Source: Clostridiales bacterium (lineage in GTDB: Bacteria > Bacillota > Clostridia > Oscillospirales > Feifaniaceae). From it: a stretch of DNA of 64,000 bases. The stretch covers positions 1 to 64,000 of the forward strand of contig JAAYBB010000020.1 of the NCBI GenBank assembly GCA_012719075.1, read 5' to 3'. Below the pieces are notes generated by a model. The model was not told where the DNA came from, searched no databases, and was given only the letters and a program-made list of their open reading frames with translations. Within the stretch, counting starts at the first letter, position 1. Each line of letters begins with the position of its first letter. Shown here piece after piece: positions 11,623 through 64,000 of the stretch. The position numbers and the translations under genes are program-made.

Positions 11623-11719
11623 GCACATAAATCACAAAATGGTGATAAAAAGTTTTGACTTATAAAAATTTGTGCCTTTTTCATCGGGAAACGGCCACTT
11701 GCGGCAGGGGGGACTGGCA

Positions 11720-13393
11720 ATGAAGGTGGAGTTGATTTCCGCGCCGCAGATGCAGACGGGCGGCCCTGAGGGGCCGCGATCCGGTCCGCTGCCCGCCTCG
11801 CTGCAGCAGGGCGCCCGCGTGCAGGCCGAGGTGCTGCGGGTCTCGGAGGAGGGCGTACAGCTGCGCCTCGAAGACGGGACGCTGCTGCAGGCCCGCGTGG
11901 AGGGAGAGCTGCCGCTGGCGCCCGGCCAGCAGGTGACGCTGACGGTCACAGCGCGCAGCGAGGCCGCCGTGAGGCTGGCCGTCGAACCGGATGCGGGCGG
12001 CGGCGCCGCGGGGGTGCAGCGTGACCCGCCGGGCCCCTGGGTGCACCGCCTGCAGGCCATGGGGTTGCCGAGCGACCCGGCCATGCTCGCGCGCCTGCAG
12101 CGGCTGCTGCAGCACCACCCCACATGCTCGTTTGAGGAGGCCGCGCTGCTGGCCGCCAACCGGCTGACGGAGGCCGAACAGGTCGAGGCGGCGCTGCCGC
12201 TGCTCAGGGGACAGGGCGGGGCCGCGGAACAGCTGGAGCGGCTGCTGGGCATGCTCGCAGAGGCAGAGGGGGCGACACCGGTGCCAACGCCGGCGGAGCA
12301 CACGGCCGTCGAGACGGCCCCCAAACGCTGGGTGGCGCTGGTCGAGTCGCTGCTCGCGGGGGCGCTGCCGCCACCCGAGGAGGTGCCTGCCCCACCGCCC
12401 GCGCCCCCAGCCGAGGCCGCGCCGCAGTCCGAAGCACCGGCGCCGCAGGACCTGTTTGCCGGGGAGCCCGGCCTGCCCCAATTAAATCCCGACCAGTTGC
12501 CCCTGCCCGCGGAGGCAGGCGCCCGGCTGGCCCCGCAAGAAGCACTGCCGGCCGCACAGGCGCCGCCCGACCGGCAGAAGTCGGTACGGGCCGAACGCCA
12601 CCCCGCAGCGGCCGACCGGCCGGCGGTGTCCGGGGACAGCGCCCGCCTGCTGGCGCTGCTCGATCAAATTCCCGCGCTGCAGGGACTGCCGGCGCGCAAC
12701 CTGCGCCTGCTGGCCGGGCTGCTGCAGCGCACGGCCGCAGAGCTGGCCGGGCAGGCGGAAGAGGCGCCCGATGCGGCGGCCGGGCTCGGCCGCTTTCTCG
12801 ACGGCCTCTTTGCCGGGCTCGAGCGCGGCGGGGCCGAGACGGCCGGGCAGCTGCGCCGGGCCCGGGAGGAGCTCTACCTGCGGCTCTCGCTCTTTCGCGA
12901 CGCCCTCTCGCAGTCGGCGCTGCCCCGCAGGGAGGCGCTGCTGGACGAGACCCAAAAGCTGATCGGGCAGGTCAAGCTGCTCGACCGGATGGAGCAGGCG
13001 GTCTGCCTGCAGCTGCCGGTGCGCATCGACGGGCGGGCCGAGACGGCCGAGCTCTATGTCTTTCGGAACAGACAGGGCGGCCGCGGCCGCATCGATCCCG
13101 AAGACGTGCAGATCCTGCTGGCGCTCGAGCTCTCGAGCATGGGGCGGCTGGAGTCGAGGATCCGCATCCGGGGCCGCGAGGTCAGCCTGCAGTTCACGGT
13201 GCAGGGCGACGGCGCGGCGGCCCATCTGGAGCGCTGCACGCCGCAGCTGCACGCGCTGCTGCAGGAGGCCGGCTTTAAGCTGACCGACGCCCGCGTGGGC
13301 CGCGCCGAGCCGCCCCCGGCGGCCGGCGGCGCGCTGCCGGGCCTGCTGTGCCCCGGGCGAAGCGGCGCGGCGCGCTGCGACCTGATGGCCTGA
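11720..13393 (+). CDS. FliK-like (hook-length-control-domain) protein, first of two in the window
   Basis: Pro/Ala-rich centre; C-terminal LQLPVRIDGRAETAELYVFRNRQGG...LELSSMGRLESRIRIRGREVSLQFTVQG resembles the FliK C-terminal domain. Confidence 0.75.
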   Translation: MKVELISAPQMQTGGPEGPRSGPLPASLQQGARVQAEVLRVSEEGVQLRLEDGTLLQARVEGELPLAPGQQVTLTVTARSEAAVRLAVEPDAGGGAAGVQRDPPGPWVHRLQAMGLPSDPAMLARLQRLLQHHPTCSFEEAALLAANRLTEAEQVEAALPLLRGQGGAAEQLERLLGMLAEAEGATPVPTPAEHTAVETAPKRWVALVESLLAGALPPPEEVPAPPPAPPAEAAPQSEAPAPQDLFAGEPGLPQLNPDQLPLPAEAGARLAPQEALPAAQAPPDRQKSVRAERHPAAADRPAVSGDSARLLALLDQIPALQGLPARNLRLLAGLLQRTAAELAGQAEEAPDAAAGLGRFLDGLFAGLERGGAETAGQLRRAREELYLRLSLFRDALSQSALPRREALLDETQKLIGQVKLLDRMEQAVCLQLPVRIDGRAETAELYVFRNRQGGRGRIDPEDVQILLALELSSMGRLESRIRIRGREVSLQFTVQGDGAAAHLERCTPQLHALLQEAGFKLTDARVGRAEPPPAAGGALPGLLCPGRSGAARCDLMA

Positions 13394-13426: not shown

Positions 13427-13729
13427 ATGGACAAGCAAGCGAAGCGGCGCGCGGCCGCGCTGCGCTACGACCCCGAGCGGGACGCGGTGCCGGTGCTGGC
13501 CGCCTTTGGCGAGGGGCATGTGGCCGAGCGCATCGTGGAGCGGGCAAGGGAGGCCGGCGTGCCGGTGATGCCCGACCCCGACCTGGCCGGCATGCTGGCC
13601 AGGCTCAGCGTCGGGGACGACATCCCGCCGGCGCTCTACGAGGTCGTGGCCAGGGTGCTGATCTTTGTCGGCGAGGTCAACCGGGGCTACGGGCACAGCC
13701 TGCAGCAGGCGGCCGAGCGGCAGGAGTGA
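13427..13729 (+). CDS. FlhB C-terminal-domain paralogue (FlhB2/YlqH-like)
   Basis: MDKQAKRRAAALRYDPERDAVPVLAAFGEGHVAERIVERAREAGVPVMPDPDLAGMLARLSVGDDIPPALYEVVARVLIFV. Confidence 0.88.
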   Translation: MDKQAKRRAAALRYDPERDAVPVLAAFGEGHVAERIVERAREAGVPVMPDPDLAGMLARLSVGDDIPPALYEVVARVLIFVGEVNRGYGHSLQQAAERQE

Positions 13730-13982: not shown

Positions 13983-15044
13983 TTGCTGAACACCATCGAC
14001 CAGGTCGCCGCGGCGTGCGCCGCGGCCGAACCCAAAATAAAGCAGGGCGCGCCGACGGGCGGCGGCGGGCCGCTGTTTGCCTCGGTGCTGGAGCAGGCGC
14101 TGCAGCAGGAGGCGACCGCCCGCAGCGTCTCGCTGACGGCGGCCCCCACCGGCGCGGGCGGCCTTGCCCAGCTGCCGCAGCGCGGCAGCATTGAGCCGAT
14201 GATCCTGGCCGCCGCCGCGAGCGGCGAGGCCGGCGACATCGAGGCCGCGCTGCTGATGCTCTGCATGACCCTGCAGAGCGAGGGGGCCGAGCGGGAGCTT
14301 GGCCCGCTGATGGGCGTGATGGCCTCGATGGTCGGGCAGGCCAGGACCCGCTCGGGCGGCGACGAGGCCATGGAGGGCGTGCGGCGCACGCTGATGCAGG
14401 CCGACTGTGCGCCGGCCGCCCTCGGCCGCGTGGAGGCGCGGGTGTTCGGCGCCGCACAGGGGACCTTTTTGCCCGACGAGGCCTGGAAGCCGACCAACCC
14501 GCAGATCTGCGGCCGCCCGGGGGAGCGCAGCGCCGAGCGGCTTGACCAGGTGCTGGACCAGTTTGCGGTCGAGTCGGCCGAGCGCTACCGGGCCCACCGG
14601 CGCACCGGCAGCGACACCTACTGCAACATCTATGTCTGGGACGCCACCAGCGCGCTCGGCTGCGAGATCCCGCACTATGTCGACGCCGCCACCGGCGCGC
14701 CGCGCAGCTACCCCGACGTCGCAGGGGCCGTCGAGCTCGGGGCCAACTCGCTGCACGACTGGCTGGTCTCCAGCGGCCAAACCTACGGCTGGCGCGAGGT
14801 GTCGGCCGCCGAGGCGCAGGCCCTCGCCGACCAGGGCTATCCGGCCGTCACGGCCTGGCGCAACCCCAACCCGGCCAGGGCCGGGCATGTGCAGATGGTC
14901 CGTCCCTCGCGGGAGGGCGGCTACGACCCTGCACGCGGCGTCGCGGTGGCGCAGGCCGGCGCCCGCAACAGCCGCTACACCTACACCTCCGACGTCTTCG
15001 GGGCCGACGCGCTCAGGGCGGTGCGCTACTTTGTGCACGACTGA
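13983..15044 (+). CDS. Putative peptidoglycan hydrolase with CHAP/NlpC-like C-terminal domain; no obvious Sec signal
   Basis: C-terminal DTYCNIYVWDATSALGCEIPHYVD...GWREV...GYPAVTAWRNPNPARAGHVQMVRP; Cys and His placed as in CHAP amidases. Confidence 0.6.
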   Translation: MLNTIDQVAAACAAAEPKIKQGAPTGGGGPLFASVLEQALQQEATARSVSLTAAPTGAGGLAQLPQRGSIEPMILAAAASGEAGDIEAALLMLCMTLQSEGAERELGPLMGVMASMVGQARTRSGGDEAMEGVRRTLMQADCAPAALGRVEARVFGAAQGTFLPDEAWKPTNPQICGRPGERSAERLDQVLDQFAVESAERYRAHRRTGSDTYCNIYVWDATSALGCEIPHYVDAATGAPRSYPDVAGAVELGANSLHDWLVSSGQTYGWREVSAAEAQALADQGYPAVTAWRNPNPARAGHVQMVRPSREGGYDPARGVAVAQAGARNSRYTYTSDVFGADALRAVRYFVHD

Positions 15045-15083
15045 CGGCGCCCGGCACGGGCGCGAAGGGCGGGGGTGAGGAGG

Positions 15084-16211
15084 ATGCGCAGGGCGCCGGA
15101 TTACTACCAGATCCTGCAGGTGCCGAGCGGCGCCTGCCGCGAGGAGATCGTCCGGGCCTATCGGCGGCTGGTCAAGCTGTACCACCCCGACGTCAACGCC
15201 GACGCCGGCGCCGAGCGGCTGATGAAGGCCATCAACGAGGCCTACGACATCCTGCAGGACGACCTCCGGCGCGAGGCTTACAACCGCGCCCGCAGCGGTA
15301 CGCCGACCAGGGGGCCGGCCGCCGGCCGGGGGGCTGCGCCGCCCGACCCGGAGGCGGCCGCGGCGGTGCTGGCCAACTACCTGCTGTGCCTGCGGTCGGG
15401 CGCCTATGGCGAGGCCTACCTGCTGCTCTGCCGGCAGGACCGGCAGCTGGTGACCGAGCAGAGCTTTGTCCGCTGGCGGCAGGCCGTGCAGCAGCTCTTT
15501 TTAATTCGGGACTTCTCGATCCGGCAGGGGGAGTGGCTGCCCGACTTCGCGCCCCAGGGCAGCCCGCTGCAGGCCGCGCTTCAGCTGCACATCGACCTGT
15601 GCGAGAAGACCCGCGCCACCGGGCGCGTGGAGCGCTACAGCCTCTCCAAGGTCATGCTGTGGGAGGAGGGGGGCTGGCGGGTCTACCTCGGGCACCGCGA
15701 CCTCGACGAGATCGTGCGGCTGCTCGAGGCGCAGCTGGCCCGGCAGGAGCAGGAGGAGATGCGCCTGCACTGGGCGGCCCACTGCCGGGAGGTCTGCCGG
15801 GAGCTGGACCTGCTCAGCACGGCTGGGCTGCTCAAGGCGGCGCAGCTGGAGCAGTACCGCTGCCGCCGGTACGGACAGAGCATGACGCTGGCCTGCTTTT
15901 CGCTGACGCCGGCCGGCGGGCGCTGCGCCGAGGCGGCCATGGCCGACCTGCTCGAGACGGCCGCCCGGCTGATGCGCGGCGCGCTGCGCAAGACCGATCT
16001 GGCGGCCTACCTCGGCGGCGGCCGCTTTGCCGTGCTGCTGATCGAACTCAAGCCGCGCTACACCGCAAGGATTGTCGAGCGGCTGCTGGCCGCGTTGCGC
16101 GAGGGGCTGCGGGCGGGCTGCGGCATCGAGGTTTCGACCCGGTACGCCTTTGCGCGCTACGGCGGACAGCCGGTGCAGGAGCTGCTCGACCGCCTGAGCC
16201 GGCAGGTTTGA
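15084..16211 (+). CDS. J-domain protein with C-terminal degenerate GGDEF-like domain
   Basis: N-terminal DYYQILQVPSGACREEIVRAYRRLVKLYHPDVN...AINEAYDIL (HPD motif); C-terminal RRYGQSMTLACFSL...LMRGALRKTDLAAYLGGGRFAVLLIEL. GTG at 15075 is an alternative start. Confidence 0.8.
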   Translation: MRRAPDYYQILQVPSGACREEIVRAYRRLVKLYHPDVNADAGAERLMKAINEAYDILQDDLRREAYNRARSGTPTRGPAAGRGAAPPDPEAAAAVLANYLLCLRSGAYGEAYLLLCRQDRQLVTEQSFVRWRQAVQQLFLIRDFSIRQGEWLPDFAPQGSPLQAALQLHIDLCEKTRATGRVERYSLSKVMLWEEGGWRVYLGHRDLDEIVRLLEAQLARQEQEEMRLHWAAHCREVCRELDLLSTAGLLKAAQLEQYRCRRYGQSMTLACFSLTPAGGRCAEAAMADLLETAARLMRGALRKTDLAAYLGGGRFAVLLIELKPRYTARIVERLLAALREGLRAGCGIEVSTRYAFARYGGQPVQELLDRLSRQV

Positions 16212-16646: not shown

Positions 16647-16761
16647 AGACGTGTAGAGGGGAGCGACCATCGCCCCGCACGCTCGGCACAGATGGGACCA
16701 AAACCGACTGTCCTGCGGCGCAGACCTGCGGCGCGGGCACGACATGAGCGAGGTGCTTTTC

Positions 16762-18336
16762 ATGGCCATCAACCCGCTGTACAACACCACCCGGCTGACC
16801 GGGCTGTCCTCCGGCATGGACACCGACACCCTGGTCCAAAACATGATGCAGCTCGAGCAGCTCAAGCTCAACCGCGAGCTGCGCGCCCAGACCAAGCTGG
16901 AGTGGAAGCAGCAGGCGCTGGGCAGCGTCAAGGACGACCTGAGCGCCTTCCGGCAGACCTACATGAGCGTGCTGAGCGCCTCCAACATGCTCAGCGGCAA
17001 GGTCTACAACAGCTTTACGATCGCCTCCAGCGACAGGGACAACGCCTTTGTGACCGTGTCGGCCAACGAGTACGCCTCGGCCGGCACCTACAAGCTCAAC
17101 CACATCACGCAGCTGGCCAGGGGCGCCCGCCTGACCTCGGGCAGCCGCGTGTCGCAGAGCGGCGAACACGAGCTCGCGGCCAACAACACCGCCCAGCTCA
17201 AGGACCTCAAGTTTGCAACGCCGCTGGTCTTTGAGGCAAACCCCGAGACCGGCGCGCGGGAGATCTCCTTTTCGATCAACGGCGAGGTCTTCAGCTTCCA
17301 GGAGACCGACACGCTGAGCAAGGTCCTCTCGACCGTCAACGGCAACGCGGCGGCCGGCGTCACGATAAAGTACGACCGCCTGACCGACAGCTTCACGCTC
17401 GAGACCACCAAAATGGGGCCGGACGCCACGCTCGAGGTGCTCAACCTGCGCGGCAACGCCTTTGGCGCGGGCGGCGCCTTCAACATCGATCCGGCCGACC
17501 TGCAGGCGGGCCAGAGCGCCATTGTGACCATCAACAACGTCGAGGTCGTGCGGGACACCAACGCCATCACGATCGACGGCGTGACCTTCAAGCTCAACGC
17601 GGCCGCCGAGGCGGGCGAGTCCTTTGCGCCCATCACGATCTCGGTCACCCGCGACATCAATGCCACCGTCGACAAGGTCAAGGCCTTTGTCGAGGGCTAC
17701 AACGCGCTGGTCAAGAAGCTCAACGAGCTGATTGGCGAAAAGGTCGACCGCGACTACCATCCGCTGACCGAGGAAGAAAAGGGTTCCATGACCGAAAAGC
17801 AGGTCGAGCAGTGGGAGACGGCGGCCAAGGCCGGCCTGCTGAGCAACGACGCCGGCATCCGCGGCCTGCTCAGCGAGCTGCGGGGCGCCCTGTTCGAGTC
17901 GGTTGCGGGGGCCGGGCGCTCGCCGGCCGACATCGGGATTTCGACCGGCAACTACTTCCTCTCGGGCACCGGCGAGATCGTGCTGGACGAGGACCGGCTG
18001 CGCAGCGCGCTGGAGCGGGACCCCGATTGCGTCATCAAAGTCTTCACCGACAACTCGGAGGCCACGGACCCTTCGGTGGCCTTCAAGGAGAAGGGGCTGC
18101 TCTACCGCCTCGTCGGGGCGATGGAGAACTACACCAAGGGCAGCCAGTCGGTCACGCTGGCCACGCTGGAGCGCTCGCTGGCCGACCAGCAGGACCGCGT
18201 GACCAAAATGCAGGAGAAGATGCTGGTGCTCGAGGAGAAGTACTACCTCAAGTACGCCGAGATGGAAAAGGCGCTGGCCAAGCTGCAGAGCCAGAGCGAC
18301 GGGCTCTCCGGCCTGCTGCAGTCGGTCACGAGTTAG
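16762..18336 (+). CDS. fliD: Flagellar filament cap FliD
   Basis: MAINPLYNTTRLTGLSSGMDTDTLVQNMMQLEQLKLNREL...; FliD N- and C-terminal regions; RBS GAGGTG. Confidence 0.95.
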   Translation: MAINPLYNTTRLTGLSSGMDTDTLVQNMMQLEQLKLNRELRAQTKLEWKQQALGSVKDDLSAFRQTYMSVLSASNMLSGKVYNSFTIASSDRDNAFVTVSANEYASAGTYKLNHITQLARGARLTSGSRVSQSGEHELAANNTAQLKDLKFATPLVFEANPETGAREISFSINGEVFSFQETDTLSKVLSTVNGNAAAGVTIKYDRLTDSFTLETTKMGPDATLEVLNLRGNAFGAGGAFNIDPADLQAGQSAIVTINNVEVVRDTNAITIDGVTFKLNAAAEAGESFAPITISVTRDINATVDKVKAFVEGYNALVKKLNELIGEKVDRDYHPLTEEEKGSMTEKQVEQWETAAKAGLLSNDAGIRGLLSELRGALFESVAGAGRSPADIGISTGNYFLSGTGEIVLDEDRLRSALERDPDCVIKVFTDNSEATDPSVAFKEKGLLYRLVGAMENYTKGSQSVTLATLERSLADQQDRVTKMQEKMLVLEEKYYLKYAEMEKALAKLQSQSDGLSGLLQSVTS

Positions 18337-18386: not shown

Positions 18387-18839
18387 ATGGTACAGTCAGG
18401 CGAGACCGGCGCGGCGTACGCCCCGCTGCAGGCCAGGGGCCTGCCGGCGGGCCAGAAGAACCCGCAGGAGGCCTATCGGCGGCAGAAGGTGCTTACGGCC
18501 AGCCCGATGGAGCTCATCCTCATGCTGTACGACGAGTGCCGCAAGCGGCTGCTGCTCGGACAGCGCGCCATGGCCAGGGGCGAGGTCGAGGCCGCCCACA
18601 ACAACCTGGCCCGCGCGCAGGACATCCTCAACGAGCTGATCAACTGCCTCGACCTCACGCTGTCGATCGGCAAGGAGCTGCTCGACCTCTACTGGTTCCT
18701 GTGGCAGGAGATTGGCCGGGCCGACCACGAGAAGAGCGAAAAGCGGGTGGAGGACGTGCTGGAGCTGATCGGCCAGATGCGGGAGACCTGGCAGCAGGTC
18801 TGCGAGACGCAGCGCGGCAGCGTGGCCCTGGAGGACTGA
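18387..18839 (+). CDS. fliS: Flagellin export chaperone FliS
   Basis: AYRRQKVLTASPMELILMLYDECRKRLLLGQRAM. Confidence 0.92.
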   Translation: MVQSGETGAAYAPLQARGLPAGQKNPQEAYRRQKVLTASPMELILMLYDECRKRLLLGQRAMARGEVEAAHNNLARAQDILNELINCLDLTLSIGKELLDLYWFLWQEIGRADHEKSEKRVEDVLELIGQMRETWQQVCETQRGSVALED

Positions 18840-31623: not shown

Positions 31624-32391
31624 GTGCCCTTGTCTGTCAAACTGTCTAGAGTGGGATGTTGCGGTGTGAATATTGGAAAAAAAGCGTTGAATTTCAAAGC
31701 GATGAACGACAGCAAGCTCCCGGTGATCGGGGACAAGCTGGAGCTCTGCATGGAGAAGGCCCCCCCCTATCGAACCCAGCTCGAGGACATCGATCGGGAG
31801 GGGAACTACCTGGTGCCGCCGCCCCAGTACCGCAGGGTGCAGATGGAGTACGAGGTTGGGCAGGCGCTCGAGGCCTTCTATTTCCGGCACAACGGGCGGT
31901 ATGGCTTTCGGGCGCAGGTGGTGGGCACGAAGGAACAGGGCGAGCTGTGCTTCCTGGTGCTGCGGCGCACGTCGGAGCCCTACCGGCAGCAGCGCAGGGA
32001 GTCCTTCCGGCTGCCGATCTCGCTCAAAATCGTGGTGCGGCCGGCCGTGGCCGGCCCCTTTCCGCTGCACCCCGACGGCGAGGACATGCGGCTCGAACGC
32101 ATGTTCAAGACCGAAAACCTCAGCGAGACCGGGCTTGGCTTCAAGACCAGCAGGAGGAGCTACGAGGTGGGCGAGCTCCTCTACATCAACCTCTACTTCG
32201 GCAGCAAGGCAACCTCCGCGCCGATCGAGTTTTACGCACAGGTCTGCCGCCGGGAGCTGGTCGACCGCGAGGCGCAGACCTACTTTATCGGGGTCAAGTT
32301 TCTCAGGGTCGGCGAGGATGTGCGGCAGATGATCGCGCGCTTTGTGCTGCGGGAGCAGCAGGAGCTCATCCGGCGCAGGCCGCCCCCGTAG
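31624..32391 (+). CDS. YcgR-like PilZ-domain c-di-GMP receptor (flagellar brake family)
   Basis: RRESFRLP (RxxxR-type) and NLSETGLGFK (D/NxSxxG-type) PilZ motifs; start may be 31702. Confidence 0.88.
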   Translation: MPLSVKLSRVGCCGVNIGKKALNFKAMNDSKLPVIGDKLELCMEKAPPYRTQLEDIDREGNYLVPPPQYRRVQMEYEVGQALEAFYFRHNGRYGFRAQVVGTKEQGELCFLVLRRTSEPYRQQRRESFRLPISLKIVVRPAVAGPFPLHPDGEDMRLERMFKTENLSETGLGFKTSRRSYEVGELLYINLYFGSKATSAPIEFYAQVCRRELVDREAQTYFIGVKFLRVGEDVRQMIARFVLREQQELIRRRPPP

Positions 32392-62791: not shown

Positions 62792-64000
62792 TCAAAAGCG
62801 ATTGCTCCAGTTGAGGGCCTCGAAGTAGTAGTCGGGCAGGCTGTCGACCGAGAGCTTGTAGCGCCGGGCAATCGCAAAGGCCTCGTCCCACTCGCTGCGC
62901 TCGTAGTGGATCACCAGCTGCAGCAGGTCGTAGAGGGGGCCCTGCCGCGTGAGCAGCGGCTCGGAAATCGAGACCGAGATCTGGGTCTGCGCGATGATTT
63001 CGGCCATGGGCTGGTCCATGATGGCGTCCATCAGCGAGAGCAGCCCCATCATGAACAGGTTGTCGGCCATGCGGCCAAGCCCCACCTTTGGGGCCAGCAG
63101 CTCGAGGAAGCGCGCCCGCACCAGCGACATGGTGATCAGCTCCTCGGGCTTGTCGTCGCGGATTTCGGAGAGCGAGATCAGCGTGATCCACTTTTTGATC
63201 TCGTCCATGCCGAGGATGGCCAGCGCCTGCCGAATGCTCTTGATGTTGTAGCGCAGGCCGAAGAAGGCCGAATTGACCACCCGCAGCAGCCGGTAGGACA
63301 GCGCGACGTCGTGCTTGATCAGGTTGGCCATCTTGGTGAAGTTGACGCTCTCCTGGTTGACCAGCCGGATGAGCTGCAGGCAGTTGAACTTGATGGGGCT
63401 GATGGCCTTGCTGCTGTTGACGATGGCCGGTCGGCTGAAAAAAAAGCCCTGAAACAGCGTGAACTTCATGGCCACGGCCGCGTCGAACATCTCCTGCGTC
63501 TCCAGCTTTTCGGCCAGCAGCGTGATGGGCTTGTGCTCCAGGGTCTTGGCAAAGACCTCGATCACCGGCAGCGGCGTGCCCAGAAAATCCACCTTGATGA
63601 TGTTGGCCACCTCGAGTAGCGGCAGGTATCTGGGGTCGATGATAAAGTCGTCCAGCGCGATCATGTAGCCCATCTTGCGCAGCTTCTGGCAGGCCTCCAG
63701 CACCTCGGGCGTCGGCTGGGTGCCCTCCAGCAGCTCGATGACCAGGTGCTGGCTGGGCAGCAGCGTGGGAATTTCCTGGATCAGCAGCTCGGGCGTAAAG
63801 TTGATAAAGGCCCGCTTGCCGCGCACCACCTTTTCGATGCCGATGTTGTGAAAGGCGTTGATGATGGTTTCGGAGGTGGCGGTGTTGGGGTCGACGTCGC
63901 CAAAGGCCACCGATTCGGCGGTGTGGCGGTAGAGCAGCTCGTAGCCGTAAATGCCCAGCGCCTGGTTAAAAACGGGTTGTCTCGCAACAAAACTGGCCAA
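62792..64000 (-). CDS. EAL-HDOD (YuxH-like) protein; N-terminus at or beyond window edge
   Basis: FVARQPVFNQALGIYGYELLYR...; HDOD region LIKHDVALSYRLLRVVNSAFFGLRYNIKSIRQALAILG. Confidence 0.88.
   Translation of the reverse strand: MASFVARQPVFNQALGIYGYELLYRHTAESVAFGDVDPNTATSETIINAFHNIGIEKVVRGKRAFINFTPELLIQEIPTLLPSQHLVIELLEGTQPTPEVLEACQKLRKMGYMIALDDFIIDPRYLPLLEVANIIKVDFLGTPLPVIEVFAKTLEHKPITLLAEKLETQEMFDAAVAMKFTLFQGFFFSRPAIVNSSKAISPIKFNCLQLIRLVNQESVNFTKMANLIKHDVALSYRLLRVVNSAFFGLRYNIKSIRQALAILGMDEIKKWITLISLSEIRDDKPEELITMSLVRARFLELLAPKVGLGRMADNLFMMGLLSLMDAIMDQPMAEIIAQTQISVSISEPLLTRQGPLYDLLQLVIHYERSEWDEAFAIARRYKLSVDSLPDYYFEALNWSNRF

Follow-up and report, generated by a model that had tools for sequence, protein, structure and literature searches.

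A J-domain protein family of the Bacillota with an NTF2-like domain and a degenerate GGDEF domain predicted to bind c-di-GMP

Cells respond to c-di-GMP through several kinds of output, and those known so far are mostly transcription, enzyme allostery, motor brakes and RNA switches. In product-inhibited cyclases c-di-GMP cross-links two GGDEF domains (PMC8041772), and in PleD the I-site is built from R359, D362 and R390 together with R313 of the partner subunit (PMC7288161). Such a site can be retained in a domain that has lost catalysis. The Myxococcus protein SgmT has an A-site that reads GGGVF and is judged catalytically dead, its I-site consists of the motif RHPD plus R794, and it binds c-di-GMP via this site, binding being abolished by the exchange R763A (PMC3509222). 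A connection between c-di-GMP and the Hsp70 machinery has been described in Myxococcus xanthus, where CsdK1 and CsdK2 are PilZ-DnaK chaperones and c-di-GMP binding is likely for CsdK2 only (PMC10313047). In Sinorhizobium meliloti, a connection of DnaJ with motility on surfaces has been reported (PMC10055731). We describe here a gene at 15084-16211 (plus strand) of the window, the whole 64-kb stretch of DNA that was analysed, encoding a 375-aa protein in which a J-domain and an NTF2-like domain are followed by a GGDEF-fold domain that has kept the I-site only. Similarly to SgmT, this protein has a C-terminal GGDEF fold, a near-identical A-site (GGGRF) and an RxxD motif plus an Arg at +31, the motif being RKTD instead of RHPD, and by prediction from these residues the domain works like the SgmT receptor domain. 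However, SgmT is a histidine kinase, and PopA, a c-di-GMP receptor of the same type whose GGDEF domain has a degenerate A-site next to an intact I-site, is a response regulator, whereas the output part is here a J-domain with an NTF2-like domain and c-di-GMP binding is predicted. The closest functional precedent are CsdK1 and CsdK2, as in both cases a c-di-GMP-type domain is fused to the Hsp70 machinery. A main difference is that these carry PilZ on DnaK itself, while in the family described here a GGDEF-derived domain sits on a J-domain co-chaperone; according to Pfam, the window protein contains neither a PilZ domain nor DnaK. The two belong to different phyla, are not homologous and represent independent fusions. 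Among J-domain proteins, the window protein resembles class C (type III), in which the J-domain is combined with unrelated specificity domains and the Gly/Phe-zinc finger-CTD architecture is absent. Features of class A/B DnaJ, the G/F region and the C-terminal substrate-binding domains, were not found, and DnaJ models match the J-domain part only. An earlier note, made from the sequence, knew of no described family with this architecture. The open-access literature that we searched likewise yielded no such family, no DnaJ-GGDEF fusion, no class C member with NTF2-like and GGDEF-fold domains and no homologue characterised with another function, an absence that in a search of this kind is no proof. 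As far as this search goes, the family is previously undescribed and combines two known kinds of protein, degenerate-GGDEF receptors and J-domain proteins.

The reading frame is intact from the ATG at 15084, and an in-frame GTG at 15075 is counted as an alternative start because an AGGAGG abuts the ATG. The J-domain comprises residues 6-67 (15099-15284; Pfam DnaJ, E 3.4e-19) and is complete, with its HPD exactly where the earlier note had placed it (15183-15191) and invariant in all 24 aligned homologues; stimulation of DnaK by this domain is strongly predicted from the sequence. A linker of low model confidence follows (residues ~73-88, 15300-15347; pLDDT <50 at residues 73-83), which in homologues is variable in length and of low complexity. 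The NTF2-like domain covers residues 89-200 (15348-15683), and a long helix, residues 207-236 (15702-15791), joins it in the AF2 model to the GGDEF-fold domain (residues 240-375, 15801-16208), which lacks the cyclase active site. By analogy with the stalk helices of diguanylate cyclases, this helix may serve as a stalk and possibly as a dimer helix. AlphaFold modelled the whole protein with a mean pLDDT of 88.4 and a pTM of 0.48, hence the relative orientation of the domains is unsure. The model consists of the J helices, a disordered linker (73-83), helices 89-138 packed on strands 139-200, the long helix and a GGDEF fold from 246 to 374. Modelled separately, the middle region reached a pLDDT of 90.5 and was matched by Foldseek to the N-terminal NTF2-like region of PBP2a/PBP3 and to ketosteroid-isomerase-like and limonene-epoxide-hydrolase proteins (best E 3e-4, TM ~0.4-0.5). 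The structural match thus agrees with the NTF2-like superfamily, in which helices pack against a curved sheet of four strands, and the support from sequence is weak, a match to Pfam MecA_N (NTF2-like) in five homologues with a best value of 0.005. For the C-terminal domain, Pfam GGDEF gives E 4.7e-4 with the window protein alone, which is under the curated cut-off, and matches 16 of 17 homologues with a best value of 2e-12. Compared with solved diguanylate cyclase domains, the whole-family profile reached E 1.9e-18 (3ign) and the C-terminal profile alone E 1.9e-16, and all top Foldseek matches of the whole model are GGDEF cyclases or GGDEF-domain proteins. All three domain assignments of the earlier note, the J-domain, the NTF2-like middle and the GGDEF-like C-terminus, are therefore borne out. 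The best Foldseek and HMM matches, PleD, WspR, DgcR and SiaD, share the helical stalk, the GGDEF fold and the I-site with the window protein, but they have a catalytic GG[DE]EF motif, which is missing here, and different input domains.

This architecture is widely distributed. Full-length homologues with the three domains number at least 28; they are diverse and occur across the Bacillota, most with an identity of only 22-45%. Of these, 24 were aligned, most of them sharing 22-37% identity with the window protein, and with four further homologues found later 28 were compared. At a threshold of E <= 1e-20 and with a match over all or nearly all of the protein, 17 of 394 genomes of the order count as carriers; the gene was also found in 4 of 391 of the class and 3 of 399 of the phylum, the source genome being included each time. 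A scan of GTDB contigs added many Oscillospiraceae MAGs, Anaerovorax-like and Lachnospiraceae-like genomes and other Clostridia MAGs. A cultured carrier among these matches is Pseudobacteroides cellulosolvens ATCC 35603, and the isolate codes of the Oscillospiraceae MAGs suggest an origin from termite guts. A one-off fusion or assembly artefact is ruled out, since full-length homologues span many genera, families and independent assemblies. Domain order is identical in all members, with a longer linker in two of them (G449 and G476), and we regard the three-domain architecture and the family as real with near certainty. Members of 530 and 564 aa (L163:373-1965 and L164:1834-3528) carry a long low-complexity linker rich in Gly, Ala, Ser and Thr after the J-domain, which recalls the G/F linker of DnaJ.

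The GGDEF-fold domain is very probably unable to synthesise c-di-GMP, since it has lost both the GG[DE]EF signature and the metal/GTP loop. In the window protein the signature has become GGGRF (residues 311-315, 16014-16028), precisely at the position given in the earlier note, and an intact GG[DE]EF occurs in none of the 24 aligned members. An active diguanylate cyclase is rejected on these grounds. Among the 136 columns of the domain, G311, G312, G313 and R314 rank only 38, 67, 35 and 57 in conservation, and residues at the positions of the motif vary. The I-site behaves differently. Its RxxD motif, R302-K-T-D305 (15987-15998), has R and D in 24 of 24 aligned members, so that R302 and D305 make up two of the three invariant columns of the domain, and RxxD is found in all 28 homologues. 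Arg333 (16080-16082) is the equivalent of R390 in PleD and R794 in SgmT. It lies 31 residues behind the Arg of RxxD, the same spacing as 359/390 in PleD and 763/794 in SgmT, and is R or K in 22 of 24 members, the two exceptions having N or H. Arg259 (15858-15860) corresponds to R313 of PleD and is R in 22 members, K in one and L in one; this equivalence rests on an HMM alignment with a 3-residue gap before RxxD and is less sure than that of the other three residues. The sequence hallmarks of degenerate-GGDEF receptors, a lost A-site with RxxD and an accessory basic residue retained, are thus present, and we consider it probable that the domain binds c-di-GMP at the retained I-site. The link to c-di-GMP that the earlier note had proposed is stronger than its author could know, as all homologues have lost the A-site while conservation within the domain is highest at the I-site.

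Two other readings of this domain have to be weighed. It might have lost all nucleotide binding and serve as a scaffold for dimerisation or client recognition, RxxD being kept for structural reasons. Many degenerate GGDEF domains are indeed known as protein-interaction modules, the metal/GTP site is gone, and E256, Y263, R262 and E321, which are likewise highly conserved in the 24-member alignment, may be structural too. We nevertheless hold this to be unlikely. In 39 canonical GG[DE]EF domains from the same or related genomes, an Arg at the RxxD position occurs in about half (19 by a strict pattern search, in which one domain was misplaced, and 21 by fixed offsets), hence the Arg is not required by the GGDEF fold; these domains argue against RxxD as a simple fold requirement. 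In the J-domain family the Arg is invariant together with the Asp and, mostly, both accessory basic residues. The difference between 28 of 28 in the family and 20 of 39 in canonical domains (Fisher p 3.5e-6) is only indicative, because the sequences within the family are related. The full four-residue site was counted in 2 of the 39 canonical domains, by an ungapped comparison at -46 that is unreliable where loop lengths differ. Alternatively, the A-site may have been remodelled to bind a different ligand, for example GTP, ppGpp or a dinucleotide other than c-di-GMP, and in line with this the Gly residues of the A-site loop are retained in about half of the members. Binding of such a ligand is nevertheless very improbable, as the A-site varies between members and lacks the acidic metal ligands and, of the strongly conserved polar clusters, that of the I-site alone coincides with a known ligand site. 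In the source genome, four other GGDEF domains (C7, C59, C18 and C82) keep GGDEF and are without an RxxD I-site. Of the GGDEF-fold proteins detected in this genome, the J-domain protein alone shows a recognisable I-site.

The earlier note had also tentatively tied the protein to flagellar biogenesis. In the window, the gene lies in a row of plus-strand genes that begins with a fliK-like gene (11672-13393; Pfam Flg_hook 4.1e-11) and flhX, a stand-alone gene resembling the C-terminal part of FlhB (13427-13729; Pfam Bac_export_2 3.6e-18, TIGR00789 1.2e-23). Directly upstream of the J-domain/GGDEF gene a 353-aa protein is encoded (13983-15044) that is conserved in six flagellar loci, and downstream follow fliD (16744-18336; Pfam FliD_C 1.2e-45), fliS (18387-18839; Pfam FliS 1.6e-28), a flgN/fliT-like gene, a DUF327 gene and cheW. 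This neighbourhood recurs in whole or in part in loci L037-L040 and L053, and in L047 the gene lies among chemotaxis genes. In a second group (L049, L050 and L056) the J-domain/GGDEF gene directly precedes a gene in the fliK position, which in L050 has no Pfam match, and flhX. In a third, represented by L059, it closes a flagellin-flaG-fliD-fliS cluster. The pair of flhX and a fliK-like gene recurs beside the family in two branches. The 353-aa protein has no Pfam, NCBIfam or PDB match, and one member has a marginal PHROG match (E 0.03). Its conserved motifs (TYCNIYVWD...GxEIPHYVD...HVQxVxPS) look like those of a CHAP/NlpC-type cysteine peptidase or amidase, which makes it a candidate flagellar peptidoglycan hydrolase of the FlgJ type. 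Flagellin is present in all 17 carriers of the order sample compared to 68 of the 394 genomes overall (hypergeometric 1.7e-14), an association that is confounded by ancestry because 13 of the 17 carriers belong to one family. Overall, flagellin occurs in all tested carriers but one; G1071 carries the gene and no flagellin was detected in its genome. Conversely, no copy was detected in the flagellated relatives G002, G007, G119, G179 and G199, hence flagella as such do not depend on the gene. A flagellar neighbourhood was thus seen in three groups of loci, and several other branches have non-flagellar neighbours. For the branch of the window it is good, and for the family as a whole it is suggestive and not general.

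From these parts a mechanism can be proposed. Sequence and model establish the four parts described above, namely the J-domain with its HPD, the NTF2-like domain, the long helix and the GGDEF-fold domain. The latter would, by strong inference, make no c-di-GMP and yet bind it at R302, D305 and R333, with R259 contributed by the partner subunit. As in product-inhibited cyclases, c-di-GMP may then cross-link or reorient two subunits through the long helix, which would alter how well the J-domain can reach DnaK or how well the NTF2-like domain can reach a client. FliK, FlhX, FliD and FliS, which serve flagellar export or assembly and are encoded close by, could be the clients or docking partners, as the gene neighbourhood suggests for the lineage of the window and two others. 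In this way c-di-GMP would strengthen or weaken the action of DnaK on the assembly of flagella when cells switch from motile to sessile life. That the window protein is a soluble DnaK co-chaperone switched by c-di-GMP, with flagellar clients in its own lineage, we consider the most likely of the readings weighed here, at about even odds. Control of DnaK in flagellar biogenesis by a protein of this kind is somewhat more tentative. Still more doubtful is the extension to a Bacillota-wide family in which c-di-GMP on the dead GGDEF domain gates the J-domain allosterically, so that DnaK becomes the direct effector controlling flagellar assembly or export after translation. A c-di-GMP-regulated co-chaperone might instead have had a non-flagellar ancestral task, in general proteostasis or that of the envelope or biofilm, the flagellar context being chance operon capture or a derived role. 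The neighbours vary by branch: termite-gut Oscillospiraceae have a metallophosphoesterase, G241 has folate and amino-acid genes, G449 has argG/argH-like genes and Pseudobacteroides has a REC-GGDEF gene, and the carrier without detectable flagellin fits this as well. Against it stand the flagellin in every other tested carrier and the flagellar neighbours in three groups, which on the tree, whose deep forks are weak, lie three changes apart, where a single origin followed by losses is also conceivable; we rate a non-flagellar ancestry as rather unlikely. Should the proposed c-di-GMP switch be correct, a second messenger would directly control the Hsp70 system through a J-domain that carries a c-di-GMP receptor of its own, and the private co-chaperone of some flagellar operons would have a testable explanation. 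The prediction is sharply defined, as it names four I-site residues, one HPD motif and one DnaK partner.

Most carriers also have other parts of c-di-GMP signalling. Of those tested, nearly all encode further GGDEF domains and most encode PilZ proteins; G008 keeps the J-domain/GGDEF gene, and no other GGDEF domain or PilZ protein was detected in it. In Pseudobacteroides and a relative, a REC-GGDEF gene with the signature GGDDF lies directly upstream of the J-domain/GGDEF gene (L063:5032-5964 and L064:4781-5704). Its metal/GTP loop is intact by sequence, and the two proteins possibly form a dedicated pair of cyclase and receptor. No c-di-GMP riboswitch was found in the 64-kb window. At 63428-63790 (minus strand) the window has a partial-length match to EAL phosphodiesterases within a 406-aa frame, which may be of the YuxH/HDOD-EAL type. 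A PilZ protein whose c-di-GMP motif (RESFR, NLSETG) looks intact is encoded at 31624-32391 (plus strand), and its gene directly precedes that of a FliA-like sigma factor.
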